Shown here: piece by piece, positions 6,618 to 42,845 of the stretch
Position numbering within the stretch: the stretch's first letter is position 1
Layout: each line of letters begins with the position of its first letter
NCBI RefSeq assembly: GCF_006716425.1
Contig: NZ_VFOZ01000002.1
Coordinates: 372,001-436,000 of the forward strand
Length of the DNA stretch: 64,000 bases
Direction: 5' to 3'
Source: Actinoallomurus bryophytorum
GTDB lineage: Bacteria > Actinomycetota > Actinomycetes > Streptosporangiales > Streptosporangiaceae
Translations under genes and position numbers: made by a program
Notes under the pieces: model-generated
The model's database searches: none
Told to the model about the DNA's origin: nothing
The model's input: the letters and a program-made list of their open reading frames with translations, nothing else

Positions 6618-7526
6618 TCAGCGGCCGGTGAACTCGCGGACCAGGCCGAAGACGGCTTGGGGTTCCTCGACGTGGGAGAAGGAGCCGCTCCTCTCCAGGA
6701 ACTCCAGCCGGATCTGCGGTGCGTACTCGGTGAACTGCCGCTGCAGTGCCGGATACAGCGCCCGGTCGTAGCGGCCGGCGAGCACCATGACCGGGACGGT
6801 GATCTCCTTCAGCCGTGGCCGGAAGTCGGGAATTCGCGCGACCTGACCGCCGATGATGAAATCGACATCGGCCCCGGCGAACAGCGGGTACAGCTCGAGA
6901 TTGCGTGCGCCCGGCTCGCTCGCCAGCAGCCGCGCGTTGTCGGGGTTGTAGAAGCGCACCAGCCGCGCGGCGACCGCGAACTCCGTGGCCATCTCCGGGT
7001 CTGTGGCCTTCAGGCCCTGGGAGCGCAGAGTGGTGATCCTGTCCCACACCTGCGGGTGCTGCCTGGCCAGCTCGGCGTTGATGTTGGCGTGGTTGGCCTG
7101 CCACATCTCCGGGCCGTGCAGGCTGTTGGCGATGGTCAGCGACAGCAGCGACTCCGGGTGGTCCAGGGCGAGCGCCTGGCCGAGGAGCCCACCGTAGGAG
7201 AACCCGTAGACGTGCACCGGTCCCAGTCCCAGCTCGTCGATGAGTGCCGCGATGTCCGCCACGTCCTCGGCGAAGGTGATGTCGGCGAGGTCGGCGGGAT
7301 GTTCCGAGCGTCCCCGCCCGTGCAGGTCGACGTAGATCAGCCGGTGGGTGCCGGCGAGCCCGGTGAAGAACGGATGGAAAATCACATGGGACCCGGCCGG
7401 GCCGAGCCCGGCGAGCAGCAACAGCGGGCTCCCGTCTCCCTCGGTCTCCACCCACAGCCGGTGCCCTCGTACGTCGTAGTGACGGCCGGGCGGGTGGCCG
7501 ACCTGCGTGGCGTTCTCCTGGGACAT
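6618..7526 (-). CDS. alpha/beta hydrolase, proline iminopeptidase-like
   Basis: A 302-residue alpha/beta hydrolase with a nucleophile elbow YGFSYGG (Ser), an acid in AGRYDRA and the histidine in GSFSHVEEPQ. Together these give a complete catalytic triad. An HGRGRS oxyanion-side segment is also present. Substrate is unknown; the family includes peptidases, esterases and lactonases. It is the second gene of a leftward pair with the MFS exporter, whose reading frame runs 145 bases into this gene. The end is only 28 bases from the convergent dehydrogenase gene. Confidence 0.8.
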   Translation of the reverse strand: MSQENATQVGHPPGRHYDVRGHRLWVETEGDGSPLLLLAGLGPAGSHVIFHPFFTGLAGTHRLIYVDLHGRGRSEHPADLADITFAEDVADIAALIDELGLGPVHVYGFSYGGLLGQALALDHPESLLSLTIANSLHGPEMWQANHANINAELARQHPQVWDRITTLRSQGLKATDPEMATEFAVAARLVRFYNPDNARLLASEPGARNLELYPLFAGADVDFIIGGQVARIPDFRPRLKEITVPVMVLAGRYDRALYPALQRQFTEYAPQIRLEFLERSGSFSHVEEPQAVFGLVREFTGR

Positions 7527-8965: not shown

Positions 8966-9131
8966 GAGCCGTCGAACTCCCGATGAATGGATGGCCCTGA
9001 TTCCCGGTGGGCGGGCAGGAAGTCAGCCAACTCGATGCGCCGGACCGGCGCTGGCGAGTTCTCGCCATCACGTTGCACACGTCAGGACCTGCGGGACAGT
9101 CGGTCCGAGTCCCGGGAGACGGCCCGTTTCT

Positions 9132-9833
9132 TCAGCGGACCAGGCGCAGGACCGCCGCGAGCCCGCGGGGCATGCGGACGTTCCGGTCGCTGGGCAGGAG
9201 GTAGACCGGGAGTCCGGCGCGTACCGCCGCGCCGTCCTTGACCGGGTCGTCGCCCACGTAGAGCACCTGCCCGGGGTCGGTGCCCAGCCGCTCGCAGGCG
9301 AGGGCGAACAGGGCCGGGTCGGGCTTGGCCAGGCCGTGCTCGCACGAGAGCACGACGGAGTGCAGCGACTCCAGCACCCCCACGCGGTCGAAGGCCGGGC
9401 GGATGTCCCAGCCGATGTTGCTGAGCACGCCGAGGCGTACGCCCCTGTCGCGCAGTGTCGTCAGGACCGGCACGGTGTCGGGGTACGGATGCCAGGCGCC
9501 GGGGTCGGTCAGGCATTCGTAGAGGGCCTCGGTCAGGTCGGGGCCGAACGGCCCGGCCTCGGCGATCAGCGTGGTCCAGGTCGAACGGTGCGCCTCACGT
9601 GACAGGTCGCAGCCTTCGCGCGCCTTGAGGCCCTCGGGCGAGTCGACGTGGCGCAGGGTCCGCCGGATGATGCCGGCGGCCTCGCGTTCGCCGAGTGGTA
9701 CGTGGTGACGCTCGGCCGCGGCGACCAGCGCCGGCGGGTCGAGCACCCCGGTGTCGTCGAACAGCGTCCCGGAGAAGTCGAACAGGACCGCTTCTACGCG
9801 TGCGTCAGCCGGTTCGTCCACGGCCGACAGCAT
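9132..9833 (-). CDS. HAD superfamily hydrolase (phosphatase)
   Basis: A 233-residue HAD-like hydrolase. Motif I is present as DFSGTLFDD, in which the usual second aspartate (DxD) is a serine-glycine pair (DFSGT). Motif II is the LSNIG serine, motif III the lysine in GLAKPDP and motif IV the VGDDPVKD acids. Such enzymes dephosphorylate sugar phosphates or other small phosphoesters. The ATG at 9833 is preferred to an upstream one at 9983 because the extra 50 residues have no domain character and a GAGGG site precedes 9833. The gene is divergent from the small membrane protein at 10007. Confidence 0.8.
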   Translation of the reverse strand: MLSAVDEPADARVEAVLFDFSGTLFDDTGVLDPPALVAAAERHHVPLGEREAAGIIRRTLRHVDSPEGLKAREGCDLSREAHRSTWTTLIAEAGPFGPDLTEALYECLTDPGAWHPYPDTVPVLTTLRDRGVRLGVLSNIGWDIRPAFDRVGVLESLHSVVLSCEHGLAKPDPALFALACERLGTDPGQVLYVGDDPVKDGAAVRAGLPVYLLPSDRNVRMPRGLAAVLRLVR

Positions 9834-9970
9834 AGATCCCTCGGTCTCCGGTTCGACTGACCAGACGGAACAAGCCGAACCTTTGGCCGAGGCGTAAACG
9901 GCTTTGTCCGGGGTATCTTGAGGGATTCGAGTTTTATCGAATGGCCTTTTTTCGGGTCGACCGAACTGGT

Positions 9971-10000
9971 TTGAAAGGTTCACTCAAAACGGTCTATATT
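9971..10000 (+). promoter_or_regulatory. sigma-70-like promoter for a probably leaderless mRNA
   Basis: TTGAAA at 9971-9976 and TATATT at 9995-10000 are separated by 18 bases. A start site six or seven bases further on would fall at or next to the ATG at 10007, so the transcript would have essentially no 5' leader. No Shine-Dalgarno sequence precedes that ATG, which agrees with leaderless translation. Confidence 0.5.
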
Positions 10001-10006
10001 GTCACT

Positions 10007-10501
10007 ATGAGTGCCTCACCGGATGACGGTCTGCCATCAGCCCCGCCTATCGCCACCTCCACCGAACCCAAAGCCAAGCCGCCCGGCTCGATCACCGCAT
10101 CGTTCTGGCTGTACATCATCAGTGCCCTGGTCGGGATCGTCGGCGGCATCCTCGTGTTCTCCGACAAGCAGCGGGTCATCGACGCCGTGCACAAGTCCAA
10201 TCCCAAGCTCACGGACACCCAGCTCCACAATACGGCGAACGTCGCGGTCGCGATCGCACTGGGCTTCTCCGTCGTCGCCTTCCTGCTTTATCTGCTGTTC
10301 GCGGCCAAACTGCGGGCCGGCCGCAACTGGGCACGCATCGTGCTGACGGTCCTGGTCATTCTCAACGCGCTTTCCCTGGTGACCAACAAGGGCACGCTGG
10401 GAGTGGAGTACGTGGGAACGGCTCTCCTGGTCATCGCCACCGTCCTCGCCTACCTGCCCGCGTCCAACGCCTACATCAAGGCGACCAGGGCGCGCACCTG
10501 A
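10007..10501 (+). CDS. small multi-pass membrane protein, function unknown
   Basis: A 164-residue protein with a proline-rich cytoplasmic N-terminus (about 30 residues) followed by hydrophobic segments near 38-58, 83-103, 113-131 and 138-155. The intervening loop QRVIDAVHKSNPKLTD is polar. No enzymatic motif is recognised. Actinomycete genomes carry many proteins of this architecture with no known role. The ATG at 10007 is chosen because it lies next to a good promoter. It is a single-gene unit, convergent with the aldo-keto reductase. Confidence 0.7.
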   Translation: MSASPDDGLPSAPPIATSTEPKAKPPGSITASFWLYIISALVGIVGGILVFSDKQRVIDAVHKSNPKLTDTQLHNTANVAVAIALGFSVVAFLLYLLFAAKLRAGRNWARIVLTVLVILNALSLVTNKGTLGVEYVGTALLVIATVLAYLPASNAYIKATRART

Positions 10502-10607
10502 CAGCCGCCCGGAGAAGCGGCCCCGGCACGGGAGACCAGGCATCACTTGACGCCGCTCACGCGCCGGGCCGCCTTCGGTCCCGCCGCCGCCGCTGCGGCG
10601 GCTCGGC

Positions 10608-11693
10608 TCAGCCGGCCGTGATGGTGGTACCGGCGTTGATCACGGGTCCCATGGCCGTACCGGAGAAGTAGTACGGATAGACCGGCTCCGGAAGGCTGAC
10701 CTCCTCGATGCGTTCCGCCATCCCGGCGGGGATCTCGAAGTCGAGGGCGCGGAGGTCGTCGTCGAGCTGCGCCAGGCGTGTCACGCTGATCAGCGTCGAA
10801 ACGACGCCGGGCCGCCGGGCCACCCAGTTGAGGGCCACTTGTGCCGGAGTACGGCCGAGTTCGCGTGCGCACTCGCGCAGGACCGCCACGATGGCCTCGT
10901 TCCGTTCGGTGAGCAGCTTGGATATCGCCGGGTTGCCGGTGGCGTCCAGCGCGTCGAGGGTGCCGTCGGCCGCCATCCGGGTCAGGCGTCCATCGCCCTG
11001 GAGCTCTCCCTGTTGTCCCCGGGTGTACTTCCCGGCCAGCAGCCCGTTCGCCAGTGGTGACCACGGGACGATGCCGATGCCCAGGTCGAGGGCGGCCGGG
11101 ACGTGCTCGCGCTCGATGGCACGTTCGGCGACGGAGTACTCCAGTTGCAGGGCGGCGACCGGCTCCCAGTGGCGGGAACGGGCGATCATCTGAGCCTTGG
11201 CGGCGTACCAGGCGGGGACGTTGCTCAGCCCGATGGCGCGGACCTTGCCGCTGCGCACCAGCGCGTCGAGCGTCGACATGACCTCCTCGACGGGCGTCAT
11301 CGCGTCCCACATGTGCAGCCAGTACAGGTCGACGTAGTCGGTCTGGAGACGCCGCAGAGAGGTGTCGAGCGAGGCCAGGATGTTCTTGCGGCCGTTGCCC
11401 CCGGAGTTGGGGTCTCCGGGCCGTGTGGCGACGGCGAACTTGGTCGCGACCACGAGGCCTTCCCGCACCCCGGTCTCCTTGATGAACGTTCCCAGCATCT
11501 CCTCGCTGCGGCCGCCCGCGTAGTTGATCGCGGTGTCGACGAAGTTGCCGCCCGCCTCCACGTAGCGGACGAAGACGGAGCGTGCGGTGTCCTCGCCCGT
11601 GTGCCAGCCGCCCTCACCGAACGTCAGGGCGCCCAGCGCGATCGGTGAGACCCGCAGTCCCGTACTCCCGAGCAACCGATAGTGCGTTGTCAT
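10608..11693 (-). CDS. aldo/keto reductase (MerR-controlled)
   Basis: A 361-residue TIM-barrel oxidoreductase of the AKR superfamily. It has an N-terminal LGSTGLRVSPIALGA segment, the catalytic aspartate/tyrosine segment FVDTAINYAGG, lysine in VATKF and a YVDLYWLHMWD strand with the active-site histidine. It uses NADPH to reduce aldehydes or ketones; substrate unknown. It is transcribed away from a merR family gene, and the 83-base gap holds two inverted repeats, one suitably placed for each gene. It is therefore probably induced by the ligand of that regulator. Confidence 0.87.
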   Translation of the reverse strand: MTTHYRLLGSTGLRVSPIALGALTFGEGGWHTGEDTARSVFVRYVEAGGNFVDTAINYAGGRSEEMLGTFIKETGVREGLVVATKFAVATRPGDPNSGGNGRKNILASLDTSLRRLQTDYVDLYWLHMWDAMTPVEEVMSTLDALVRSGKVRAIGLSNVPAWYAAKAQMIARSRHWEPVAALQLEYSVAERAIEREHVPAALDLGIGIVPWSPLANGLLAGKYTRGQQGELQGDGRLTRMAADGTLDALDATGNPAISKLLTERNEAIVAVLRECARELGRTPAQVALNWVARRPGVVSTLISVTRLAQLDDDLRALDFEIPAGMAERIEEVSLPEPVYPYYFSGTAMGPVINAGTTITAG

Positions 11694-11709
11694 GGCGCCA
11701 CCTTGCGGT

Positions 11710-30921: not shown

Positions 30922-31121
30922 GCCGATACCTTTCATATTCAACCCACGGTCAATCCACTTGTCACGATGATCCGGATCGACTCGTCCACCGCGATGTCTC
31001 CACATATTCCAGATGGATTGAGATCCACTGTGCGCACCTTTATGTGCGAGAATCTTGGGCGAACCTTGAATCAGCTGCTCAAGCCCGCTACGTCTGGTTC
31101 AAGGCGCGGGGGGACACGGTG

Positions 31122-33932
31122 GTGGTGGAGTTCGGCTTGCTCGGCGATATCCGGGCGCGGGTCGATGGCCGGTCGCTGGATCTGGGGCATGCGCGACAGC
31201 GGTGCGTGCTAGCGGTCCTGCTCGTCGAGGCGAATCGCGTGGTGCCGGTCGACCAGCTCGTTGAACGAGTGTGGGGTGAGCGTTCTCCGCAACGGGCTCA
31301 GGAGACGCTGTACAGCTACCTGTCCCGTATTCGCCAGGCGTTATCCATTGCCGGCGATGAGGTGGAAATAGCGCGGCGGTCCGGTGGTTACGCCCTTGCG
31401 GTTGATAAGAACGCCGTCGACCTGCACCGTTTTCGCCGAATGATCGCCCAGACCCGTACCGCCTGGGATGACGATCACGCTGCGCCCCTGTTCGAGCAGG
31501 CGCTCGAGCTCTGGCAGGGGGAACCGTTCGCCGGCGTGGACACGCCGTGGTTCAACTCGGTGCGGGAAGCTCTCCTGTGGGAGAAGCTCGCCGCCGAGCT
31601 GGCCTTGGGCGACCTCCAGCTGCGGCTAGGCCGACATTCCGAGCTGATGGCCGAGCTGTCCATCCGCATCCAGGCGCATCCGCTGGACGAACGCCTGGCC
31701 GGCCAGCTGATGCTGGCCTTGTACCGCAGCGGGCGTGCCGGCGAGGCCCTGGCCCAGTATCGACACATCCGGAAGCGCCTGGCCGAGGAGGTGGGCGCTG
31801 ACCCCGGCCCGCCGCTTCAGCACCTGCACCAGCAGATCCTCACCGCCGACCCGGCGCTTACCGTACCCATCCGGTCCAGGGCAAGGACGGCACCGGCTTT
31901 CGCTCCGGCACCGCGACAGCTTCCTGCTCCGCCGCCCCTCTTCGTCGGCCGGAATCGCGAACTCGCCCACCTTGACCGCCTGCTGGGGCCACGGGCCGAG
32001 CGGGGCGACACGATGACGATCTCAACGATCGGTGGTGCCGGCGGTAGCGGTAAGACCTGGCTGGCGCTGCACTGGGCCCACACTCAACAGCAACATTTTC
32101 CCGATGGGCAGCTGTACGCCGACCTGCGAGGTTTCTCCGCCTCAGCGGAACCGATACCACCGACGGTGGCGGTGCGCACTTTTCTCGATGCCCTCGACGT
32201 GGCCCCTGCGGAGATCCCCGCAGACCCGGACGCCCAGGCCGCGCTCTACCGGAGCCTTACCGCGGGCAAGCGCCTGCTCATCATCCTCGACAACGCCCGT
32301 GACTCCACTCAGGTCCTGCCCCTGCTCCCGGGCAGCCCCAGATGCATCGTCCTGGTCACCAGTCGCCACCAACTCACCGGTTTGATCACCGGCCACGGCG
32401 GAATCCCCCTCACGTTGGACGTGCTGACCGAGTCCGAGTCACAGGAATTGCTCAGCCTGCGCCTCGGCCCCGACAGGATCGCCGCTCAACCCGACGCCGC
32501 CGCCACACTCCTCAGGCACTGTGCGGGCCTGCCCCTGGCCATCAGCATCCTGGCGGCCCGCGCCACCATGAACCGCGCACTCTCCCTCACCGCACTGGCC
32601 ACAGAACTGCGCGAGGCCACGACCCGGCTCGACGTCCTGGACGCCGGGGAGACGACCGCCGATCTACGTGCGGTCTTCGCCACGTCCTACCGCGCCCTCG
32701 ACGCCCAGACCGCCAAGGTCTTCCGGCAGCTCGCCCTGGCACCAGGCCCGGACGTCGGCCTGCCCGCGGCCGCCAGCCTCACCGCGCTCCCCCTTCCCCG
32801 CCTCCGCACTCACGTGCGCAAGCTGCAGGCCGCACATCTGATCCAGGAACACACGCCCGGCCGCCACACCTGCCACGACCTGCTGCGCACGTACGCCACC
32901 GAACTCGCCCACACCCTCGATTCCGACGCCGAACGGCACACAGCGCTCGGGCGGATACTCGACCATTACCTGCACACCGCGCGCACTGCCGAGAGACTGA
33001 TCCAACCTCACCGGGACCCCATCACCCTGGCGCCGGCGGCCGATGGTGTTTCGCCCGAGCGGCTCACCACCCATGACCAGGCCATGGAATGGCTCACACG
33101 CGAAAGCGCACCCCTGCTCACGGCCGTCGAACACGCCGCCCGCACCGGCCTCGACACTCACGCCTGGCAACTGGCGTGGACGGCCACCACCTACCTCTGC
33201 CGACGCGGACGATGGCATGACGTCGAGGCCCTGCAGCGCACGGCACTCGCCGCCGCCACCCGGCTCGGTGACCGCTCGGCACAGACCGAGTGCCACCGGC
33301 CATTGGCGTACGCCCTCATCGAAACGCATCGCTTCCCCGAGGCGCGCCACGAACTCGTGAGGGCACTCGAGCTATCCACAGATCTCGGCGACAGCCGGGG
33401 CCAAGCACACACCCACCTCGCCTTGGGCTGGATGTACGAGCGCCAAGGCGACCAGCAGACGGCTCTCCACCACGACCTCAAGGCCCTCGATCTCTTCACC
33501 TCGCTCGGCCACCGGTCAGGACGCGCCAGAGCCCTCAACGCGGTCGGATGGGACCACACCAAACTCGGCCTCTACCAGCAGGCCATCGCCCACTGCCGCG
33601 AGGCCCTGACCCTGCAACAAGAACTCGAGGACGAACGCGGTCAAGCCAGCACATGGGACAGCCTCGGCTACGCATACCAGCAGATCAGTGATTACCGGTA
33701 CGCGATCGACTGCTACCGGCGCAGCCTGGAACTCAACCGGGCACTGGGCCACCGTTTTAACGAGGCAGAGACCCTCGTCCACCTCGGAGAAGCCCGTCGC
33801 GCGACGGGCGATGACCACGCCGCCCAAGACGCCTGGCGCAAAGCCATCAACATCCTCGTCGACATAGGTCACGACGCCGAGCTGGACCGGATCCACGCCC
33901 TGCTCAACGACCTCGGCCAAACGCCGACATAG
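31122..33932 (+). CDS. AfsR/SARP-type regulator: DNA-binding, BTAD, NB-ARC and TPR domains
   Basis: A regulator of about 936 residues. Residues 1-90 are an OmpR-like winged helix (FGLLGDIRARVDGRSLDLG, QLVERVWGE, RIRQAL). Residues 95-240 are the bacterial transcriptional activation domain. The NB-ARC ATPase follows with Walker A IGGAGGSGKTW near 303-313 and Walker B LLIILDN. The C-terminal third has TPR repeats (GQAHTHLALGWMYERQGDQQ, ARALNAVGWDHTKLGLY). This architecture is that of AfsR-like activators of secondary metabolism. GTG codons at 31119, 31122 and 31125 are all possible starts behind GGGGGGA; 31122 has the best spacing. The six-cysteine peptide gene begins 171 bases downstream on the same strand and is the obvious candidate target. 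Confidence 0.87.
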   Translation: MVEFGLLGDIRARVDGRSLDLGHARQRCVLAVLLVEANRVVPVDQLVERVWGERSPQRAQETLYSYLSRIRQALSIAGDEVEIARRSGGYALAVDKNAVDLHRFRRMIAQTRTAWDDDHAAPLFEQALELWQGEPFAGVDTPWFNSVREALLWEKLAAELALGDLQLRLGRHSELMAELSIRIQAHPLDERLAGQLMLALYRSGRAGEALAQYRHIRKRLAEEVGADPGPPLQHLHQQILTADPALTVPIRSRARTAPAFAPAPRQLPAPPPLFVGRNRELAHLDRLLGPRAERGDTMTISTIGGAGGSGKTWLALHWAHTQQQHFPDGQLYADLRGFSASAEPIPPTVAVRTFLDALDVAPAEIPADPDAQAALYRSLTAGKRLLIILDNARDSTQVLPLLPGSPRCIVLVTSRHQLTGLITGHGGIPLTLDVLTESESQELLSLRLGPDRIAAQPDAAATLLRHCAGLPLAISILAARATMNRALSLTALATELREATTRLDVLDAGETTADLRAVFATSYRALDAQTAKVFRQLALAPGPDVGLPAAASLTALPLPRLRTHVRKLQAAHLIQEHTPGRHTCHDLLRTYATELAHTLDSDAERHTALGRILDHYLHTARTAERLIQPHRDPITLAPAADGVSPERLTTHDQAMEWLTRESAPLLTAVEHAARTGLDTHAWQLAWTATTYLCRRGRWHDVEALQRTALAAATRLGDRSAQTECHRPLAYALIETHRFPEARHELVRALELSTDLGDSRGQAHTHLALGWMYERQGDQQTALHHDLKALDLFTSLGHRSGRARALNAVGWDHTKLGLYQQAIAHCREALTLQQELEDERGQASTWDSLGYAYQQISDYRYAIDCYRRSLELNRALGHRFNEAETLVHLGEARRATGDDHAAQDAWRKAINILVDIGHDAELDRIHALLNDLGQTPT

Positions 33933-34103
33933 GTCAACTCAACAGATGATCTTGATATCCGGCGGTGTGGTTTCGACATTGTGCAGGAATCTGCAACAAC
34001 AGTGCACATAACGTCAATGACTTCCCTAGGGGCTCGCGGCATTCTGGGCGAAGAACGGCCGTCACATACCGGGTGGACGGCAAAAACGCTCGAAGGAGAG
34101 TCC

Positions 34104-34289
34104 ATGCGTATCCGGCTCCAGGTGATCTCCGAACGTGTTCTCGAGAAGGTCGCGCCAAAGGCGACCGCTTCGGCCATCAACTGTTGGCAGCGCGAGTGCC
34201 AGGTACGGAGTTGCCTCGGCCAGAAGACCACAATGATGGATCTCGACCCGTGCAACGACCGGCAGAGGGTTCTCTGGTGCGGCTGCTGA
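34104..34289 (+). CDS. six-cysteine precursor peptide candidate, 61 residues
   Basis: A small gene with a near-ideal AAGGAGAG site four bases before ATG 34104. The 61-residue product has a charged amphipathic N-terminus (MRIRLQVISERVLEKVAPKA), an A-S-A triplet at 22-24, then a C-terminal part holding six cysteines at 27, 32, 37, 50, 59 and 61 (CX4CX4CX12CX8CXC), ending in cysteine. The leader is not hydrophobic enough for an ordinary Sec signal. It is followed by MauE-like, S26 peptidase, thioredoxin-fold and ABC exporter genes, which suggests a secreted peptide with three disulfides. This is inference; the family is not one I recognise. An in-frame ATG at 33981 exists but has no ribosome-binding site. 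Confidence 0.65.
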   Translation: MRIRLQVISERVLEKVAPKATASAINCWQRECQVRSCLGQKTTMMDLDPCNDRQRVLWCGC

Positions 34290-34306
34290 CGAATTAGTGC
34301 AGCACG

Positions 34307-34350
34307 TGATCCGTGTCCAGTACGGCGACGACCGGGCTGGACACGGATCA
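34307..34350 (+). terminator. hairpin 1 downstream of the peptide gene
   Basis: Arms of 14 perfectly paired bases (TGATCCGTGTCCAG and complement) around a 16-base loop, 18 bases after the peptide stop. It probably terminates or attenuates transcription so the peptide mRNA exceeds that of the processing genes, or protects its 3' end. Confidence 0.65.
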
Positions 34351-34364
34351 GAACACGCTTCCCA

Positions 34365-34399
34365 GCTTCGCCCCGGTGGGCTCCGGGCCGGGGCGAAGC
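34365..34399 (+). terminator. hairpin 2 downstream of the peptide gene
   Basis: Arms of 12 paired bases (GCTTCGCCCCGG and complement) around an 11-base loop; the stem extends by CCCA/TGGG past one bulged base. It follows hairpin 1 by 14 bases and precedes the MauE-like start by 51. Confidence 0.62.
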
Positions 34400-34450
34400 C
34401 TGGGCATCCCCTGCGTACGGACATCGCGCCGTCTGGGAGGTTCAGGTTCG

Positions 34451-34999
34451 GTGATTTACGTTATCGATAGCGGCCGAATATTCCTCGGCCTTGTCTTTTT
34501 GTGTTCTGTGGTCAGCAAGCTGAGGGGCGCCTCGGCGTTCACGTCCTTTCACGACGCGATAGGGCAACTCGCCCCGTTATTGCGGGGCAGGTCGATGACC
34601 ACCGCTGTCCTGGTGGTCACGGCCGAGACCGTGGTGGTCGTCGCACTCGCAGTCCCCGGGGCCGTGACCATGGGCTTCGCACTGGCCGCGATGTTGCTTC
34701 TGGCGTTCACCGGCGGACTCGTCGGGGTCCTGCGCAGAAAGGCGAGCACGTTGTGCCACTGCTTCGGTGGAGGCAGTGATCCGGTCGCGCCCCGGCACGT
34801 CGTACGCAATGTGGCCTTGCTGACCGTGGCCCTGGTCGGGCTGGCCGCCCGGCTCGGCACCGCGGACGGCGGTACTGCCTCACCCCCCGGGCTGCTGCTG
34901 GCCGCGGGTGTTGCGGTGATCCTCACCTTGTTCACCGTGACTCTCGACGACCTGGCGGGTCTGTTCCCACCGGCCGGCGCGAAGGGATCTCAATGGTGA
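34451..34999 (+). CDS. MauE/DoxX-like membrane redox protein
   Basis: A 182-residue integral membrane protein with about four to five helices (near 8-22, 52-70, 74-94, 115-132 and 142-162). A Cys-His-Cys motif is found at C102-C104 (TLCHCFGGG), the conserved CxCFG site of MauE-like proteins. MauE, with MauD, is needed to form the disulfides of methylamine dehydrogenase; related proteins pass reducing equivalents across the membrane. The GTG at 34451 follows GGGAGG at a ten-base spacing. It overlaps the signal peptidase gene by seven bases. There is no methylamine dehydrogenase here, so the nearby six-cysteine peptide is the likely client. Confidence 0.75.
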   Translation: MIYVIDSGRIFLGLVFLCSVVSKLRGASAFTSFHDAIGQLAPLLRGRSMTTAVLVVTAETVVVVALAVPGAVTMGFALAAMLLLAFTGGLVGVLRRKASTLCHCFGGGSDPVAPRHVVRNVALLTVALVGLAARLGTADGGTASPPGLLLAAGVAVILTLFTVTLDDLAGLFPPAGAKGSQW

Positions 35000-35505
35000 T
35001 CTACATGCTGTTGGGCGCCATGCCGCCTGCGCTGGCCTGCCTCGTGATCATCACCTTGGCCCGCCGCCGGTACCTCGTCGTGACGGTCGAGGGTGCCAGC
35101 ATGACGCCTGCTCTCACCGATGGCGACCGAGTGCTGGTCCGCCGGACCGATCTTGCCGGGATCGGCGTCGGCCGACTCGTCGTGGCCGCACCGCCGGAAG
35201 GCGGGCACTGGGACGCCATGAGCCTCCCAACCTGGCTGATCAAGCGTGCGGCCGCGGTACCGGGAGACCCAGTGCCCCGCGATCGCGGGCCGGCGCTGCG
35301 GGACATCCTCGGGAACCAGGTGCCGGACGGCCGGATCGTGCTACTCGGCGACAACCCGGAAGAGAGCCTGGACTCGCGGTTCTGCGGCTACTTCCACGAG
35401 GAGCAGATCCTCGGTGTCGTCGTCCGCGAGCTGCCACGTGCCGTTCCGCGTCCTGCCGGCTCTCATCAGTTCGCGACCACCGGATCGCTCCAGAAAGAGA
35501 CATGA
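34993..35505 (+). CDS. S26 family signal peptidase
   Basis: A 170-residue protein with one N-terminal membrane helix (7-24) and the S26 catalytic dyad: the serine S36 in EGASMTPAL and the lysine K84 in LIKRAAAVPGD. The conserved late box GDNPEESLDSR (119-129) is also present. These enzymes cut exported proteins after small residues, usually A-x-A. Its place between the MauE-like and thioredoxin-fold genes, all overlapping or nearly so, suggests a dedicated role in cleaving the peptide precursor rather than general secretion. Its stop overlaps a dispensable ATG two bases before the next gene's start. Confidence 0.83.
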   Translation: MVIYMLLGAMPPALACLVIITLARRRYLVVTVEGASMTPALTDGDRVLVRRTDLAGIGVGRLVVAAPPEGGHWDAMSLPTWLIKRAAAVPGDPVPRDRGPALRDILGNQVPDGRIVLLGDNPEESLDSRFCGYFHEEQILGVVVRELPRAVPRPAGSHQFATTGSLQKET

Positions 35506-35506
35506 C

Positions 35507-36052
35507 ATGGCGTATCTGACCGCCGGCCTTCTCCTTGTAGGGCTGGTTTGCATCTTCGATCTGCTGCTGACGTTCGGGCTCATCCGGCGGCTGCGTCAAC
35601 GCCCCGTCGACCCGAGCGCCGGCGAGCCGATCCCCGAGTCGGTTCTCGCCACCGGCGCGGTCGTCGGCCGCTTCACCACGACCGATACGGAGGGCAGGGA
35701 ACTCACTCAAGACGGCCTGGCCGAGGGACTCATAGTGACGTTCCTGTCCCCTGGGTGCCCGGCATGTGGAGAGATCCTCCCGTTGGTCGTCGAGCGGGCT
35801 CGCGAGCACGGTCCGGGCCGCGTCCTGGCGGTCGTCGTACGGGACGACGAGAAGGACACCGATCCGGGCGAGTACATCGATCGGTTGTCGCCGGTGGCCA
35901 GGGTGGTCGTCACGTCCCTCGGCCATGAGGTGACGCAGGCGTTCGCCGTCCGTGGCCTTCCTGCCTACGTCGAGATGGGCGCCGAGGGACGCGTCGTGAG
36001 CAGCGGCCGTGCTCTGCCTCGCGGGATGAAGACGGCAGAGGTGGGTGCATGA
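35507..36052 (+). CDS. membrane-anchored thioredoxin-fold protein (TlpA/MauD-like)
   Basis: A 181-residue protein with an N-terminal membrane helix (5-25) and a thioredoxin-like domain from about 50. The active-site CxxC is CPAC at C84-C87 (LSPGCPACGEI), and a cis-proline-like GLPAYVEM segment lies near 155. With the helix in the membrane, the CxxC should face outside, where it can oxidise, reduce or isomerise disulfides. It pairs naturally with the MauE-like protein as an electron partner. The downstream exporter gene starts within its stop (ATGA). Confidence 0.82.
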   Translation: MAYLTAGLLLVGLVCIFDLLLTFGLIRRLRQRPVDPSAGEPIPESVLATGAVVGRFTTTDTEGRELTQDGLAEGLIVTFLSPGCPACGEILPLVVERAREHGPGRVLAVVVRDDEKDTDPGEYIDRLSPVARVVVTSLGHEVTQAFAVRGLPAYVEMGAEGRVVSSGRALPRGMKTAEVGA

Positions 36053-37893
36053 CCGGTTCGGGCGACAGACTGACCTGGAGGGCCGCGCTCGCCGCCGTAC
36101 GCGGAGCCACCGCCCTCGCCTGGCGGGGAGCGCCCGGGAGTACGGTCGCAGTGATCACCATCGCAGTGGTCACAGCGGGCGTACCTGTCGCACTGGCCTG
36201 GCTGACGAGGCTCGTCCTGGACCGTCTCGCCGGGGCAAACGGCGCCGCACTGCTCGGGCTCGCCGTGGGCCTGGCGGCCCTCGGCCTGGGAGCAGCCCTC
36301 CTGCCGCACCTCAACCAGTACTTCAGCAGCCGTCTGAACAGGGCGGCGGGAGCACTCGCCGTGGACCGGCTCTACACGGTGGTCAATTCCTTCAGCGGGC
36401 TGGCCCGGTTCGAAGACCCAGTTTTCCAGGACCGATTGCAGATGGCACAGACCGCCGGCAGCCGGACCATCGGACGTGTCGTCGACGGCGGAATGCGGAT
36501 CGCCGGTGGTGCGCTCACGAGCATCGGCTTCAGCGTCGCCCTCTTCGTGGTGAGCCCGGCGATGACCGTGCTCGTCCTGGTCTCGGCCACGCCGGCGCTC
36601 GTGGCGGAGCTGAAGCTGTCGCACCGGAGGGCCGCGAGCGCTTGGCGCATCAGCTCGGCGCAACGGCGGGAGTACTTCTACCAGATGCTGGTCTCCAGCC
36701 TGGACGCGGCCAAGGAGATCCGACTGTTCGCTGCCGGTGGTTTTCTGAAAGAACGGATGCTTGCCGAGCGGCGCGACGCCGATGCCGAGCGCCAAAAGGT
36801 GGATCGGCGCGAGGTCGTGAGTCAGGGCGTCCTCGCGCTGCTCAGCGCACTCCTCTCCGGCGCGGGCCTGGTCTGGGCCGCGCTCGCGGCGCGGCGTGGC
36901 GCGCTGACGATCGGTGACGTGTCAATGTTCGTGGCCGCCGTCGTCGGCGTCCAGGGCGCGTTGTCCGGTCTGGTTCAATCCATAGCCGAAGGCCACCAAG
37001 AGCTACTGATGATGCGGCATTATCTGGCGATAATGCATGAAGGACCCGACCTGACGCCTCCAGCAGAGGACAGTCGACTCACCGCCCTTCCCGATCTGCG
37101 TAAAGGCATCGAGTTCCGGGACGTATGGTTCCGCTATGACCACGACCATTCCTGGGTATTGTGCGGTGTGAACCTGTACGTCCCGCACGGAGAGACCGTC
37201 GCCCTCATCGGGCGCAATGGGGCGGGCAAGAGCACTCTCGTCAAGCTGCTCTGCCGATTCTATGACCCGACCAGAGGCTCGATTCTGTGGGACGGCATCG
37301 ACATACGCCGGGTCCCCGTGGAAGAGGTACGCCGCCGACTCGGTGCCGTTTTCCAGGATTACATGCATTACGACCTTACCGCGGCAGAGAACATCGCCAT
37401 CGGCGATATACAGGCACTTGGAGACCGGCCACGACTGGGGGCCGCGGCCCGGGAAGCAGGCATCGACCACGTACTGTCAGGCCTGCCGCGGGGTTACGAC
37501 ACCATGCTGAGCAGGATCTTCCCCAGCCGGACCCAGGGCGACTCCCCGACTGGCGCTCTGCTCTCGGGCGGACAGTGGCAGCGCCTGGCCCTGGCGAGGG
37601 CATTCCTGCGTACGGAGCCTGACCTGCTGATCCTCGATGAGCCCAGCTCGGGGTTGGACGCCGAAGCCGAACATGACCTCCACACGCGACTCAAGCGTTA
37701 CCGGGCGGGCCGGACCAGCCTGCTGATTTCCCATCGGCTCAACGCCGTCAATGACGCGGACCGGATCATCGTGCTGGCGGAGGGCCGTATTACCGAGGAA
37801 GGTACCCACGAGACCCTCCTTGGCAAAAGCGGCATATACGCCCGCCTGTTCACCCTCCAGGCCAGCGGCTACCAGGAGAGTCGCCATACGTAG
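36049..37893 (+). CDS. ABC exporter, fused permease-ATPase, no peptidase domain
   Basis: A 614-residue half-transporter: six membrane helices over residues 25-320, then an ATPase domain with Walker A GRNGAGKST (388-396), Q-loop VFQDYMHY, signature LLSGGQ (504-509), Walker B LLILDEPSSGLD and H-loop ISHR, all intact. It should dimerise to export a substrate. There is no N-terminal C39 protease domain as in bacteriocin PCAT exporters, so leader removal must be done by another enzyme; the S26 peptidase two genes upstream would fit. It is the last gene of the operon; the ice-binding-like gene follows after 166 bases. Confidence 0.87.
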   Translation: MTGSGDRLTWRAALAAVRGATALAWRGAPGSTVAVITIAVVTAGVPVALAWLTRLVLDRLAGANGAALLGLAVGLAALGLGAALLPHLNQYFSSRLNRAAGALAVDRLYTVVNSFSGLARFEDPVFQDRLQMAQTAGSRTIGRVVDGGMRIAGGALTSIGFSVALFVVSPAMTVLVLVSATPALVAELKLSHRRAASAWRISSAQRREYFYQMLVSSLDAAKEIRLFAAGGFLKERMLAERRDADAERQKVDRREVVSQGVLALLSALLSGAGLVWAALAARRGALTIGDVSMFVAAVVGVQGALSGLVQSIAEGHQELLMMRHYLAIMHEGPDLTPPAEDSRLTALPDLRKGIEFRDVWFRYDHDHSWVLCGVNLYVPHGETVALIGRNGAGKSTLVKLLCRFYDPTRGSILWDGIDIRRVPVEEVRRRLGAVFQDYMHYDLTAAENIAIGDIQALGDRPRLGAAAREAGIDHVLSGLPRGYDTMLSRIFPSRTQGDSPTGALLSGGQWQRLALARAFLRTEPDLLILDEPSSGLDAEAEHDLHTRLKRYRAGRTSLLISHRLNAVNDADRIIVLAEGRITEEGTHETLLGKSGIYARLFTLQASGYQESRHT

Positions 37894-38059
37894 GTGACGC
37901 ACCCGCAGGCGGTCGGCGGCACGCGAGCTCTCCGGAGACGCCGTCCGACTCGCCAATCGTCGATGTCATCCCGTGGTACGCCGATTGGACACAGTACGAT
38001 CAGCAGGCTCCATGAGCTCTTGACCAGGGGAGATGTTCCGGCAAAGGAGACGTCCGGAA

Positions 38060-39199
38060 ATGGCGGCCAATGTCGTTCGAGCCTTCCGCGGATCGGCCGG
38101 ATCCGCATTACTCGCGGTCGGGATGACGCTGGCGTTCATACCCGCCTTCGCCGTCCCGCCGTCGAGCGCGGCGACGGCTCCGGTGGCACTCGGAACGGCC
38201 GCCGACTTCTCGGTTCTGGGCGCCTCGACGGTCACCAACACCGGGCCCACCGTCATCTCCACGAACCTCGGCCTGAGCCCGGGCACCTCGGTGACCGGGT
38301 TCCCCCCCGGCGCGGTGGGCGGCACGATCCACGCCGCCGACGCCACAGCCGCCCAGGCCCAAGCGGACCAGATCGCCGCCTACAACGACGCCGCCGGGCG
38401 TACCCCCACCACCACCCTCGCAGGGGACATCGGCGGGACGACACTCACACCCGGCGTGTACGGCTCCACCTCGTCCCTGGGAATCACCGGGACGCTCACC
38501 CTCAACGGCCAGGGCGATCCCAACGCCGTGTTCATCATCCAGATGGGCTCCACCCTCACCACGGCGACCGCCAGCACGGTGAACCTCACCAACGGCGCCC
38601 AGGCATGCAACGTGTTCTGGCAGGTGGGCAGCTCCGCGACATTGGGTACCGGCTCCACCTTCAAGGGCACCATCCTGGCCCTGACCTCGATCACCGTCAC
38701 CACCGGCGTGAGCATCACCGGCCGTACGCTGGCCCACAACGGAGCGGTCACCCTCGACACCAACGCCATCGACGGCACCACCTGCGAGCCCGGGTCCCTG
38801 TCGATCTCGACACCGAGCGCGAGAAGCCTCGGCTCCGGCACGGCCGACACCACGATCACCAACACGCTTGGCGAGGTGACCGTGGACGACACACGCGGCA
38901 CCGGCCCGTCCGACTGGATCGCCACCGTTACCTCCACGGACTTCACCGAACCGGGAGCACCCCACATCCCGCCCAGCGCCATGACCTACAGGCCCGGAGC
39001 ACCGATCAGCGGCACCGGCGACGGGCTGTTCACCCCGGGAACAACCGGCACCCTGAGCTCGACCCCGAGAACCGCCTACTCCCACACGGCCGGGACCGGC
39101 ACCAACCACCTCACCTGGAACCCGACCCTGAGCATCGCGATCCCCTTCACCGCGCCGGGAGGCACCTACACCGGGACCGTCACACATTCCGTGGCGTGA
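38060..39199 (+). CDS. secreted ice-binding-like (DUF3494) protein
   Basis: A 379-residue exported protein. A signal peptide (about 1-37, ending PPSSAATA) is followed by the DUF3494 beta-solenoid domain (about 40-235). Recognisable segments are LGTAADFSVLGASTVTNTG, TSVTGFPPG, LTPGVYGS, AVFIIQMGS, NVFWQVGSSATLGTGS and FKGTILA. DUF3494 proteins include ice-binding and adhesin-like surface proteins. A Thr/Ser/Gly-rich C-terminal domain (240-379) has no clear identity. ATG 38060 follows AAAGGAGA; an upstream ATG at 38033 lacks a site. No cell-wall anchor is seen. In a mesophilic actinomycete an adhesive role may be likelier than ice binding. Confidence 0.85.
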   Translation: MAANVVRAFRGSAGSALLAVGMTLAFIPAFAVPPSSAATAPVALGTAADFSVLGASTVTNTGPTVISTNLGLSPGTSVTGFPPGAVGGTIHAADATAAQAQADQIAAYNDAAGRTPTTTLAGDIGGTTLTPGVYGSTSSLGITGTLTLNGQGDPNAVFIIQMGSTLTTATASTVNLTNGAQACNVFWQVGSSATLGTGSTFKGTILALTSITVTTGVSITGRTLAHNGAVTLDTNAIDGTTCEPGSLSISTPSARSLGSGTADTTITNTLGEVTVDDTRGTGPSDWIATVTSTDFTEPGAPHIPPSAMTYRPGAPISGTGDGLFTPGTTGTLSSTPRTAYSHTAGTGTNHLTWNPTLSIAIPFTAPGGTYTGTVTHSVA

Positions 39200-39446: not shown

Positions 39447-39908
39447 ATGGTGACCGCCAAAGACGTGCTCATCGCGGGTACGGTCCTCACCGGCGTCGCG
39501 GCACTGGCCGGCAGGCTGCTCCCGCGACGCGAACCTCCGGCCGGCCGGCCCGTCTCCGAGAGATCCCCGGACGCGGCCGATGGCGACCACCGTTACGTGC
39601 GAACGATGACCGAGCTCAACCACACCTTCGCCCTGCTCGGCGTGGCCTCCACCCCCTTCATCAACTTCGCGCTGTTCGACTCCTACCATCCCCACCCGCT
39701 GCGCAGCTTCTTCTCGCTCTGGTGGCAGGGCCGTACGAGACGGCACGGGCGCGGCTGGATCGTCACTGGCCGGACGAGGTCACGGCGGGTTCGGCCTGCG
39801 CCGGCGGCGGGTCCTCCTCGGACGACGCCTCGGCCCGACCGCCGGCGACCAGACGCTCGGTCGGCAGGAAGCAGAAGATCAGGCAGAGCACATGCGGCCA
39901 GAACATGA
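39447..39908 (+). CDS. hypothetical membrane-anchored protein, possibly frameshifted
   Basis: The first 90 or so residues look like a real protein: a membrane helix (6-22), then RTMTELNHTFALLGVASTPFINFALFDSYHPH and LRSFFSLWW. From about residue 94 the sequence becomes arginine-rich and reads antisense to the convergent membrane protein gene, overlapping it by 146 bases. A protein-like continuation (PYETARARLDRHWPDE) lies in the next frame, so an indel or truncation near 39725 is likely. Function unknown. Confidence 0.4.
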   Translation: MVTAKDVLIAGTVLTGVAALAGRLLPRREPPAGRPVSERSPDAADGDHRYVRTMTELNHTFALLGVASTPFINFALFDSYHPHPLRSFFSLWWQGRTRRHGRGWIVTGRTRSRRVRPAPAAGPPRTTPRPDRRRPDARSAGSRRSGRAHAART

Positions 39909-40665
39909 TGGTGATCATGGCGAACACGGACAGGTGGAAGAGGACGAAGGCGGCCACCAGCAGGTGCCGATACCGGGGCTTCACGAAAAGAATCACCGGC
40001 GAGGAGAATTCCATCGCCATGATGCCCCACTGCGCCCAGTGCAGCAGCTCGGCATGGTGGAGCAGCGGATCCGCGATGAACGTGCCACGTCGTAGCACCG
40101 CGCGGACGAGCGTGGCACTGTTCACCCACCCCCAGCCGCCGAACCGGACCTTGGCCCACGCGGCGAGGAAGTACGTGGCGACCACCGCGAGCTGTACGCA
40201 GCGCATGGCCCAGCCCGCGGACTCCGACGGCGTTCGATCGCGGAACGCCGCCCTGCCGACCGTGGGCAGGACGGCCAGGGCGACCAGGTAGGCGAAGCGG
40301 TCGTGATCGACCTTGCCGAACGAGAAGGCGATGACGATCCACTCGAAATAGAGCACCGCGATCGTCCCGCCGAGCAGACGTGGCAGCCGGCCGGTCGCCG
40401 CCACCGGCGACAGGATGAGCAGCGACCAGCGCACCACCTCGATCAGCGCGGCGGCCGGATGCGGCAGGTGCAGCAGCTTGCCGACGATCAGCGGCTGGTA
40501 CAGCGACGCGGCACTGGCGTGTTCGCTGCTCACCGGGTGCAGTAGCAGCACGTCGAGCGGGACGAAGAGGTATGCCGCCGCGCGGAAGACCGCGATCCGC
40601 GCCTTCGGCACAGGGGCGAACCACCACGACGCGAACGCCACGCCGGGTTTCACGAGCGCGTCCAC
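39763..40665 (-). CDS. multi-pass membrane protein, HTTM-like
   Basis: A 300-residue protein with eight or so hydrophobic segments and features of the HTTM (vitamin K-dependent carboxylase-like membrane) group. These include an early RIAVFRAAAYLFVPLD helix, histidine-rich turns around residues 55-60, and LHWAQWGIMAMEF and HLLVAAFVLFHLSVF helices. The assignment to HTTM is tentative. The last 25 residues are soluble and acidic. It overlaps the upstream gene by 16 bases and is co-transcribed with it. Confidence 0.65.
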   Translation of the reverse strand: MDALVKPGVAFASWWFAPVPKARIAVFRAAAYLFVPLDVLLLHPVSSEHASAASLYQPLIVGKLLHLPHPAAALIEVVRWSLLILSPVAATGRLPRLLGGTIAVLYFEWIVIAFSFGKVDHDRFAYLVALAVLPTVGRAAFRDRTPSESAGWAMRCVQLAVVATYFLAAWAKVRFGGWGWVNSATLVRAVLRRGTFIADPLLHHAELLHWAQWGIMAMEFSSPVILFVKPRYRHLLVAAFVLFHLSVFAMITIMFWPHVLCLIFCFLPTERLVAGGRAEASSEEDPPPAQAEPAVTSSGQ

Positions 40666-41150
40666 TGAGCGATCGTGAACTCCCGGGTTCCGACGTACAA
40701 GCGGTGCCGGAGCATGTAGTACTGCTGGATCAGCCTGACGCCCGTCCAGCGCGGCTCCCGGGGTTTCAGCCGGTCGTGTGCTTCGACCAGCCGTTCCAGC
40801 AGCCCGGGATCGACCTTGAACCGGGTCCCTTGCCCCTCCGCCTCGGCACGGGTGATGCCCACCTCGCCGGCGTCCAGCCTCACCCGCTTCCAGGTCCCGT
40901 CCGGCATGCGTGCGTCGAGAGCCATGACGTTGACATTGCCGTTCGGTGGCGTGCTCGTCGAGTACATCCGGAAGGGTCCGAAGGGGAACGCGTCATCGTC
41001 ACCGAATGCCGTACCGGCCAGCAGCAGTGTCAGGCAGACCGCCGTCACCAGTATCCGGATCGCGCGTGCCCTGGGGCGCAGCCGCTGGATGCTCATCAGA
41101 GCCCATTTGATCATGTGGACGCCGATGAGGAACATGACGGGGCCGAACAA
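40650..41150 (-). CDS. membrane-anchored protein of unknown function, partner of the HTTM-like protein
   Basis: A 166-residue protein with a membrane helix near residues 30-48, after a basic stretch QRLRPRARAIR. The rest is an extracytoplasmic domain starting DDDAFPFGPFRMYSTS. No catalytic motif is seen. Small single-helix proteins of this type commonly accompany HTTM-like membrane proteins, and the 16-base overlap supports a functional pair. The start could be the ATG at 41150 or internal ATGs at 41114 or 41096. Confidence 0.6.
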   Translation of the reverse strand: MFGPVMFLIGVHMIKWALMSIQRLRPRARAIRILVTAVCLTLLLAGTAFGDDDAFPFGPFRMYSTSTPPNGNVNVMALDARMPDGTWKRVRLDAGEVGITRAEAEGQGTRFKVDPGLLERLVEAHDRLKPREPRWTGVRLIQQYYMLRHRLYVGTREFTIAQWTRS

Positions 41151-41180: not shown

Positions 41181-41855
41181 TCAGCAACCGGGATCGGTGA
41201 TGACCTCCACCCAGAGCGCATCGGGATCATCGGCATCGATCGCCGGGTCGATCGCCGCCACCTCCGCCAGTACGACCCGCTCACACGCCTTGATCCGGGC
41301 GAAGTGGGCATGCTGCTCTTCCTCCGGCCGTGAGTGATGGGGCTCCTGGAGGTGAAGATCCCTGAAGATCGCGACCGCGGATCGCCACCGCCACGCCAGT
41401 TCGACGAGTTGCGCCATCGAGGAGTTGAGGAACATGACCGCCGGCTGGTACAGGTCCGCGTAGACCTCGCGCAGATCGGGATGGAGGTCGGCGGCCGTCA
41501 CCGGGGCGTCTCGGATGCCCAGCACCCGCCCGTCGCCGGCGACCGCCCCCATCTTCGGGGTCAGATCGTGACTCCCCCACCACCCGAGGTGGTACAACCG
41601 CTGATCGGCGGCGATCAGGCGGCGCTCCTGCTCCGCTGCCACGTTCGGAACCAGGAGCGGCTCGGTCGCGTGCTGAAACTCCGGCTTCATGATCAGGTCC
41701 GTCGGCAGGCCCCATTCCGCGAGGGCGAGCCGGTCCTTTTCCGGTATCTCCCAGCGTTCCACCGCCGCGGCGGGAGGCCGTTTCCGCTGATCGGGTGCGA
41801 CGATGCGCTCCAACGGCGCCACCATCACCGCCTGTAGACGTTCTTCAATCGACAT
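41181..41855 (-). CDS. SUKH-4-like immunity-type protein
   Basis: A 224-residue soluble protein. The segment GLPTDLI near 50, the YHLGWWGSHDLTPKMGAVAGDGRVLGI strand pair near 85-115, and FLNSSMAQLVELAW near 145 follow the usual pattern of SMI1/KNR4 (SUKH) family members, especially SUKH-4. These often act as antidotes to contact-dependent or polymorphic toxins. No toxin gene with a recognisable nuclease or deaminase domain is adjacent. The start ATG 41855 gives the family-like N-terminus; the gene lies 147 bases from the divergent methyltransferase gene. Confidence 0.6.
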   Translation of the reverse strand: MSIEERLQAVMVAPLERIVAPDQRKRPPAAAVERWEIPEKDRLALAEWGLPTDLIMKPEFQHATEPLLVPNVAAEQERRLIAADQRLYHLGWWGSHDLTPKMGAVAGDGRVLGIRDAPVTAADLHPDLREVYADLYQPAVMFLNSSMAQLVELAWRWRSAVAIFRDLHLQEPHHSRPEEEQHAHFARIKACERVVLAEVAAIDPAIDADDPDALWVEVITDPGC

Positions 41856-42002
41856 TCGCGCCCAATCGCTGGTTCTCGGAGGAAGTTCCACACACGAATA
41901 CCGCACTCTCGCGACCTGGCGGCGGATTGTCGTATCGCGCGGATTTTCCGGACGCCAGGCCATTAGATTGGGTCGCTCGTGGTGACACGCGAGAGGACCG
42001 CC

Positions 42003-42845
42003 GTGACCGACAGGGAGCGGGCGCTGCAGGGCGTCGATACGAACGTGCCCAGCGTGGCTCGCGTTTATGACTATCTGCTCGGCGGCAAGGACAACTTCGC
42101 CGTCGACCGGCAGGTGGCCGAGCTGATTCTGGAGATCTCCCCGGACGCGCCGGCAACGGGCCGCGCCAACCGGGAGTTCCTCGAGCGCGTCGTGCGCTAC
42201 CTCGCCGGCGAGGCCGGCGTCCGGCAGTTCATCGACCTGGGGTCGGGCCTGCCCACGCAAGGCAACGTGCACCAGATCGCCCAGGGCGTCGATCCGGCGG
42301 CGCGCGTGGTGTACGTCGACAACGACCCGATCGTCCTTACGCATGGCCAGGCCCTGCTCGCCGAAGACGGGGCCACGACCATCGTGCAGGGCGACATCCG
42401 CGAACCGAAAGCGCTCCTCGACCACGCCGGGCTCCGGCAGTTCATCGATTTCAGCCGGCCGGTCGGCCTGCTGCTCTTCGCGATCCTGCATCATCTGAAA
42501 GACGAGGAGGATCCGCGCGGCATCGCCACCCGGCTCCTGGCCGGGCTCCCCGCCGGCAGCTACATCGCCATCTCCCACTTTCACAATCCCGGCCCCGCGC
42601 TGCCGGCGGTCGCCGAGCAGGTCACCGCGGGCGAGAAGCTGTTCAACGAGCGGCTCGGCACCGGGCGCTGGCGGACACGCGAGGAGATCCTCGCCTACTT
42701 CGGCGGCCTGGAGCCGATCGAACCCGGCCTGGTGCCGCTCCTGCAGTGGCGCCCGTCCCCGTCGGCGGCGCCGCATGTGCGGACCGCTGCCGAGCTCGCA
42801 CCCCTCCACTACGCGTTCCTGGGTGGAGTCGCCCGCAAGCCCTGA
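42003..42845 (+). CDS. SAM-dependent methyltransferase, DUF574/PF04672 type
   Basis: A 280-residue protein. It begins with the family hallmark VPSVARVYDYLLGGKDNFAVD and has the SAM-binding motif FIDLGSGLPTQGNVHQIAQ. VYVDNDPIVLTHG and LLFAILHHLKDEEDP follow, and the protein ends PLHYAFLGGVARK. This actinomycete-specific family is large, and no physiological substrate is firmly known to me. GTG 42003 follows GAGAGGA; GTG codons at 41979 and 41982 are alternatives. Confidence 0.87.
   Translation: MTDRERALQGVDTNVPSVARVYDYLLGGKDNFAVDRQVAELILEISPDAPATGRANREFLERVVRYLAGEAGVRQFIDLGSGLPTQGNVHQIAQGVDPAARVVYVDNDPIVLTHGQALLAEDGATTIVQGDIREPKALLDHAGLRQFIDFSRPVGLLLFAILHHLKDEEDPRGIATRLLAGLPAGSYIAISHFHNPGPALPAVAEQVTAGEKLFNERLGTGRWRTREEILAYFGGLEPIEPGLVPLLQWRPSPSAAPHVRTAAELAPLHYAFLGGVARKP

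Follow-up and report, generated by a model that had tools for sequence, protein, structure and literature searches.

What does a bacterium make from a small cysteine-rich reading frame that stands at the head of a run of genes for redox, protease and export proteins? The question is raised by a 64,000-nucleotide stretch of the 9.47 Mb genome of Actinoallomurus bryophytorum (contig NZ_VFOZ01000002.1, positions 372,001 to 436,000), hereafter the window, where a 61-residue precursor gene is followed by genes for a MauE-like membrane protein, an S26 peptidase, a membrane-anchored redoxin and an ABC exporter. Judging from sequence comparison, it is quite probable that this locus yields a small secreted peptide held by three disulfides, which would be exported by the ABC protein, cut by the S26 peptidase and furnished with its disulfides by the redoxin together with MauE.

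The precursor gene and its closest relatives

The precursor frame (34104–34289, forward strand) encodes 61 amino acids and is preceded by a ribosome-binding site read from the sequence, AAGGAG (34093–34098, forward strand), five bases from the ATG. Alignments, together with the leader columns of 110 precursors described below, divide the translation into a leader of residues 1–24 (MRIRLQVISERVLEKVAPKATASA; 34104–34175), which ends in an AxA site (A22-S-A24), and a 37-residue core of residues 25–61 (INCWQRECQVRSCLGQKTTMMDLDPCNDRQRVLWCGC; 34176–34289 including the stop codon), which contains six cysteines in the spacing CX4CX4CX12CX8CXC. The original prediction had described a 61-residue gene with a strong ribosome-binding site and this cysteine spacing, and all three were found as described.

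The nearest relative of the cassette belongs to Embleya scabrispora (locus L089), where the same five genes occur in the same order with identities to the window of 47% for the precursor, 48% for MauE, 61% for the S26 peptidase, 48% for the redoxin and 69% for the ABC exporter. The regulator and the ice-binding protein gene that flank the window cassette have no match in the Embleya locus. The window framework with its CGC ending was also found in precursors of Streptomyces atratus and S. varsoviensis and of three other genomes of that genus. An alignment of four genes (window, Embleya and two Streptomyces) shows no change at any of the six cysteines; in an alignment of seven genes the first cysteine occupies a shifted column in one member. 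A conserved cysteine framework and an AxA site, which the original prediction expected of relatives, were thus both present. In S. clavuligerus two precursors are encoded on a large plasmid beside genes annotated as MauE/DoxX, ABC and S26 proteins, and both precursors and the redoxin are labelled 'hypothetical protein' in that record.

Since relatives with the same cysteine framework adjoin the same genes in Embleya and in several Streptomyces, we regard the 61-residue frame as a genuine gene on comparative grounds. The opposite view, that it is a chance frame which is never translated, could draw on its shortness, on the absence of any Pfam, NCBIfam or PHROGs family match for the window precursor and of any PDB match for the family profile (weak Pfam and NCBIfam matches were few, each confined to one of 32 family members). 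This view is scarcely credible in the face of six cysteines and a leader pattern conserved between genera, of the ribosome-binding site and of pN/pS ratios below 1 in both leader (0.49) and core (0.33) among 102 close pairs. These ratios point to purifying selection on both parts of the precursor in close pairs, with no sign of the positive selection that was looked for in the cores.

A leader-defined family and its cysteine parity

The family was collected from a first set of 40 stretches, each surrounding a redoxin relative; two belong to the genome of the window itself and 38 to other genomes of the same bacterial family. Tblastn matched the 61-residue peptide six times, chiefly in the leader, across five of these stretches, and an iterated profile raised the count to 53 precursors, the window included. 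To avoid circularity, a leader-only model was trained on 32 precursors, restricted to their 24 leader columns, and applied to 100 loci, namely the first 40 stretches and 60 new ones from a scan of named genomes (76 minus 16 duplicates); L138 and L142 are the sole pair among them with more than 1 kb of DNA identical between the two. At E ≤ 0.1 the model gave 108 matches within 4 kb of the redoxin gene and two farther away, the DNA searched amounting to 0.79 Mb near the redoxin and 1.00 Mb far from it, and it gave zero matches in reversed frames.

As a result, 110 distinct precursors, two of which share one core, were identified by the leader-only model in the 100 redoxin-anchored actinomycete loci. 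A cysteine-rich small gene at this position, on which the original prediction had staked its validity, was found within 4 kb in 87 of the 100 loci by the leader-only model and in 93 by any model. The 60 loci outside the training set contributed 58 precursors in 52 loci, 57 of them with an even cysteine number, and the nine extra precursors detected by other models only all have an even number as well.

The leader is strongly conserved, with Ala at position −3 in 107 and at −1 in 109 of the 110 precursors, which are the small residues expected in a signal peptidase substrate, Pro at −7 in 108, and a charged pair in its middle (Asp −15 in 105, Arg or Lys −14 in 102); no leader contains a cysteine. 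The cores, in contrast, range from 28 to 53 residues with 71 different cysteine spacings, so that a conserved leader is joined to a variable core, as is characteristic of ribosomally synthesized and post-translationally modified peptides (RiPPs).

AxA is the recognition pattern of the housekeeping signal peptidase, and the peptide could accordingly be a normal cargo of Sec whose signal peptide is unusual, with the ABC exporter and the S26 peptidase serving something else. A few leaders indeed approach true signal peptides in hydrophobicity: the maximum of the best 10-residue mean is 2.38, compared with 2.35 for a reference signal peptide, the N-terminus of the neighbouring ice-binding-like protein. 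However, most leaders have no strongly hydrophobic run (median 1.23, 90th percentile 1.93), the central charges are kept, and 73 of the 100 loci have precursor, ABC and S26 genes all within 5 kb. We therefore hold this explanation to be improbable. Secretion by Sec alone was rejected for the window, whose leader reaches only 0.47 and has no Sec-type hydrophobic core.

The cores nearly always contain an even number of cysteines (109/110), an expectation that was absent from the original prediction. Six cysteines occur in 55 cores, eight in 37, ten in 14, twelve in two, four in one and three in one. The single odd precursor (L162, Fodinicola), in which the frame is lost behind a C run immediately ahead of the AxA site, was counted as odd. 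Of 291 core pairs that are 45% or more identical, 244 have equal cysteine numbers, 36 differ by two cysteines, ten by four and one by six, and none by an odd number; such gain and loss in pairs fits disulfide pairing. Clustering of the cores at 50% identity gives 53 clusters, 52 of which are entirely even. This count depends on the threshold, and single linkage at 35–40% identity merges nearly all cores, for which reason no probability is quoted for the parity. In close pairs the cysteines are kept at 736 of 756 positions, compared with 2573 of 3433 for other core residues. From the even cysteine number and the linked redoxin and MauE genes, the core is predicted to be modified by disulfides. 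The monoisotopic neutral masses calculated for fully oxidized cores are 4381.897 for the window peptide, 4462.988 for that of Embleya and 4797.026 and 4913.219 for the two of S. clavuligerus.

Cassette proteins, proposed maturation and distribution

Downstream of the precursor, all on the forward strand, lie genes for a MauE/DoxX-family membrane protein with a CxC motif (34451–34999; PF07291, 76.9 bits), an S26 signal-peptidase-like protease with Ser36 and Lys84 (34993–35505; PF10502, 67.6 bits; TIGR02227, 65.9 bits), a membrane-anchored thioredoxin-fold redoxin with a CPAC motif (35507–36052; weak similarity to ResA/MauD and AhpC-TSA) and an ABC exporter in which a permease is fused to an ATPase (36049–37893; PF00005, 108.4 bits, above the cut-off; PF00664, 25.1 bits, slightly below the cut-off of 28). 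The MauE gene shares its last 7 bases with the S26 gene, the redoxin gene begins after a gap of one base, and its last 4 bases belong to the ABC gene as well; the gene identities and the tight packing claimed in the original prediction are thereby confirmed. It had also reported no classical RiPP-modifying enzyme, and a Pfam scan of 16 window neighbours, from which two overlapping frames at 41181–42845 were left out, revealed none of the lanthipeptide, lasso, sactipeptide or graspetide type.

Across the 100 loci, the ABC gene was found within 5 kb of the redoxin in 86, S26 in 86 and MauE in 74. Among the proteins from the first 40 loci and the window, the catalytic Ser and Lys of the S26 peptidase, the dyad of signal peptidase I, are kept in 36 of 36, the redoxin retains Cys84 in 44, Cys87 in 43 and Pro152 in 44 of 44, and the two MauE cysteines of the CxC motif are kept in 27 and 26 of 28. 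In L082 a second redoxin (9000–9542), whose neighbour is a ten-cysteine precursor, no longer has the second of the two CxxC cysteines (aligned ICPEAVER) and is perhaps a non-catalytic partner.

In the most likely course of events, the leader would be recognized by the dedicated ABC exporter, which would carry the precursor through the membrane; cleavage after AxA, at the outer face, would fall to the dedicated S26 peptidase; and the membrane-anchored CxxC redoxin, with electrons passing via MauE, would set or proofread the disulfides outside the cell. The ABC protein consists of permease and ATPase domains only and has no C39 peptidase match in Pfam, so that the leader must be removed by a different protease, for which the AxA rule suggests S26. 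For want of the same C39 domain, a double-glycine bacteriocin was rejected. As for the natural role of the peptide, antimicrobial action or signalling would be our guess.

The redox direction could also be the reverse, with the redoxin and MauE acting as a reducing, ResA/CcdA-like pair that keeps or reshuffles thiols for another modification or for metal, the product then being something other than a simple disulfide peptide. The best NCBIfam match of the redoxin is indeed ResA (21.3 bits, cut-off 170), MauD (TIGR02661) reaching just 15.8 bits against a cut-off of 188.6, and the same redox-export genes serve an ATP-grasp cluster elsewhere in the genome (see below). Yet no modifying-enzyme family recurs beside the 100 operons in a neighbour clustering by a crude gene caller, which misses genes, as it called the redoxin itself in only 56 loci. 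Moreover, the even cysteine numbers and paired changes fit disulfides, while metal sites and thioethers need no even number. We consider the reducing alternative unlikely. A role in methylamine metabolism was rejected, as the redoxin fails the MauD equivalog model.

In the same clustering, AfsR/SARP-like regulators formed the commonest neighbour family outside the cassette (at 57 of the 100 loci, no more than 6 kb from the redoxin, as a raw count of recurrence); the next commonest occurred at 10 loci. Of the 61 members of this family, 59 are related to the window regulator just upstream of the precursor gene (31044–33932, forward strand, start codon tentative), which has BTAD, NB-ARC and TPR domains (PF03704, PF00931, PF13424), is a probable cluster regulator and so would probably control the cassette. 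This protein also scores 338.6 bits against HaaT, the model of a cyclophane-RiPP TPR protein (cut-off 1125), which hints that regulators of this sort accompany RiPPs of several types.

The gap between the precursor and mauE contains a hairpin with a 15-bp outer stem (34307–34350, forward strand) and a second one with a 13-bp stem (34365–34399, forward strand, from the centroid), both from an RNA fold of 34287–34450 (−83.3 kcal/mol, z −3.45). They have no entry in the terminator scan and are possibly an attenuator or a processing site that allows an excess of precursor. The mauE reading frame opens at GTG 34313; since this codon falls within the first hairpin and GGGAGG precedes GTG 34451, the latter appears the more likely start. 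Directly 3' of the cassette lies a gene for an ice-binding-like protein (38033–39199; PF11999, 221 bits), followed at 39763–41135 by two adjacent minus-strand genes for proteins of 300 and 161 amino acids with no Pfam match at E ≤ 0.001.

The A. bryophytorum genome carries two further loci of this kind. The first (L044, C2:510000–528000) has a second full cassette at 8118–11702 with a six-cysteine precursor and the order precursor-mauE-redoxin-ABC-S26. The second (L045, C1:7262000–7280000) combines mauE, redoxin and ABC genes with an MvdD-type ATP-grasp gene and has no S26 gene (about 7057–11700); its precursor-like frame is graspetide-like, with three cysteines towards the end, and differs from the family precursors. 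A tree built from 85 ABC proteins joins the window copy to that of Embleya (SH-aLRT 100) and places the remaining two copies of the genome elsewhere, each in a different part, which indicates separate histories for the cassettes of one genome. Transfer of the cassette between families is likely, though not proven, from these sequences.

Searches with the precursor alone gave few carriers. The other seven genomes of the genus contain no credible relative, with three matches at E 0.5–0.7, of which the one in L010 was taken as chance since it falls in what looks by eye like an mce-type locus. Precursor models matched 4 of 295 Streptomyces genomes and at least 4 of 396 genomes of a phylum sample, namely the own genome, one at an operon and two by chance; the latter figure is a lower bound, as 16 candidates were scored per genome. 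Outside the own genome these searches gave seven matches, and the five stronger ones (E ≤ 6e-6) all lie at a full operon, surrounded by mauE, redoxin, ABC and S26 genes. The remaining two, at E 6e-4 and 8e-4, are stretches that resemble a leader, with no operon gene in the 3 kb covered, and were set aside as chance. The redoxin profile matched at least 7 of the 396 genomes (8 candidates scored per genome), five of them through weak C-terminal matches taken as unrelated redoxins.

Several observations weigh against a dedicated machine for an exported disulfide peptide, besides the few leaders of signal-peptide hydrophobicity noted above. Seven of the 100 redoxin loci have no precursor by any model. 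One of them is L045, whose pairing of the redox-export module with an ATP-grasp gene indicates that the module is not exclusive to this peptide family. Within 5 kb of the redoxin, MauE was undetected in 26, ABC in 14 and S26 in 14 of the 100 loci, some contigs ending there, and the cassette is patchy in the phylum as sampled, with few carriers found. The predicted structure of the window precursor is weak (mean pLDDT 65.9, pTM 0.39; core about 80, with three predicted strands), as is that of a Microbispora relative (pLDDT 58.8), and Foldseek with the window model returned no solved fold at E ≤ 0.001, so that no fold class is assigned. Finally, every biochemical step, the order of steps and the oxidizing direction are inferred, and ResA-like proteins are able to reduce disulfides. 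The original prediction that these genes form, cut and export a three-disulfide peptide thus stands in respect of the family, the leader, the AxA site, the linkage and the catalytic residues, while oxidation and the parts assigned to S26 and the ABC protein are still putative.

Relation to known systems

Taken together, these loci appear to encode a large and almost undescribed leader–core family of ribosomal peptides, which apparently mature through oxidative folding by dedicated machinery. We lean towards regarding it as a distinct actinomycete class, in which enzyme-guided oxidative folding would be the sole maturation and one leader and a common machinery would serve varied cysteine cores. 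If so, actinomycetes hold a large pool of disulfide-stabilized encoded peptides that go unnamed in the annotation seen, MauE-type membrane proteins gain a testable role in peptide maturation, and the machinery would be indifferent to the core and might serve for the folding and secretion of disulfide-rich peptides made by design. The family is a possible source of new secreted bioactive peptides. Genomes can be mined for it with the cysteine pairing rule as a simple test and the leader model as a key, and S. clavuligerus is a workable host for experiments.

Sublancin and other glycocins are disulfide-bonded exported peptides with dedicated thiol oxidoreductases, a glycosyltransferase and a C39-type exporter. 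Neither of the latter two was seen at the window locus, and a glycocin was rejected on the absence of a glycosyltransferase among the 16 window neighbours, the relatives having been covered by the crude neighbour clustering only.

The sole direct precedent found, in a literature search that covered few subscription journals, is decRiPPter (Kloosterman et al. 2020, PMC7794033). It reports mauE in three of 42 candidate RiPP families of Streptomyces, one of them also with mauD; the precursors of these mauE families have at least eight cysteines and are machine-predicted and uncharacterized. The filters applied there demand a transporter, a peptidase and a regulator, and S. viridosporus T7A is named. 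The S. viridosporus NRRL 2414 locus (L132) of the present set has a ten-cysteine precursor, so part of the family was probably glimpsed by decRiPPter. As there, the window locus unites mauE, a transporter, a peptidase and a cysteine-rich precursor; however, its precursor has six cysteines and so falls below eight. Of the 110 precursors of the present family, 53 have 8–12. Compared by description, the decRiPPter families come from one genus, with no leader or cleavage site in the text consulted, whereas the present family spans many genera with 4–12 cysteines, the parity rule and the S26/AxA pairing. The original prediction had not recognized the combination as a described peptide class, a view to be qualified by the mauE-linked, cysteine-rich candidate families, uncharacterized, that were listed in 2020.

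MauD and MauE serve one enzyme, methylamine dehydrogenase (PMC7794033). The window locus likewise combines a membrane MauE with a thioredoxin-fold partner, but its redoxin scores far below the MauD cut-off, and small exported peptides would take the place of a single enzyme. TMcins (PMC13252029) resemble the window system in ABC export and an in-cluster disulfide enzyme, which is DsbA-like; they differ in having one disulfide, a transmembrane core and an S2P-type protease. Graspetides share the mauE-redoxin-ABC module at the ATP-grasp locus of the own genome, but their precursor is different and no ATP-grasp ligase was found among the 16 window neighbours scanned. Beyond bacteria, the joining of a conserved leader to variable cysteine cores is proposed as a counterpart of the strategy by which animals make conotoxins and defensins.

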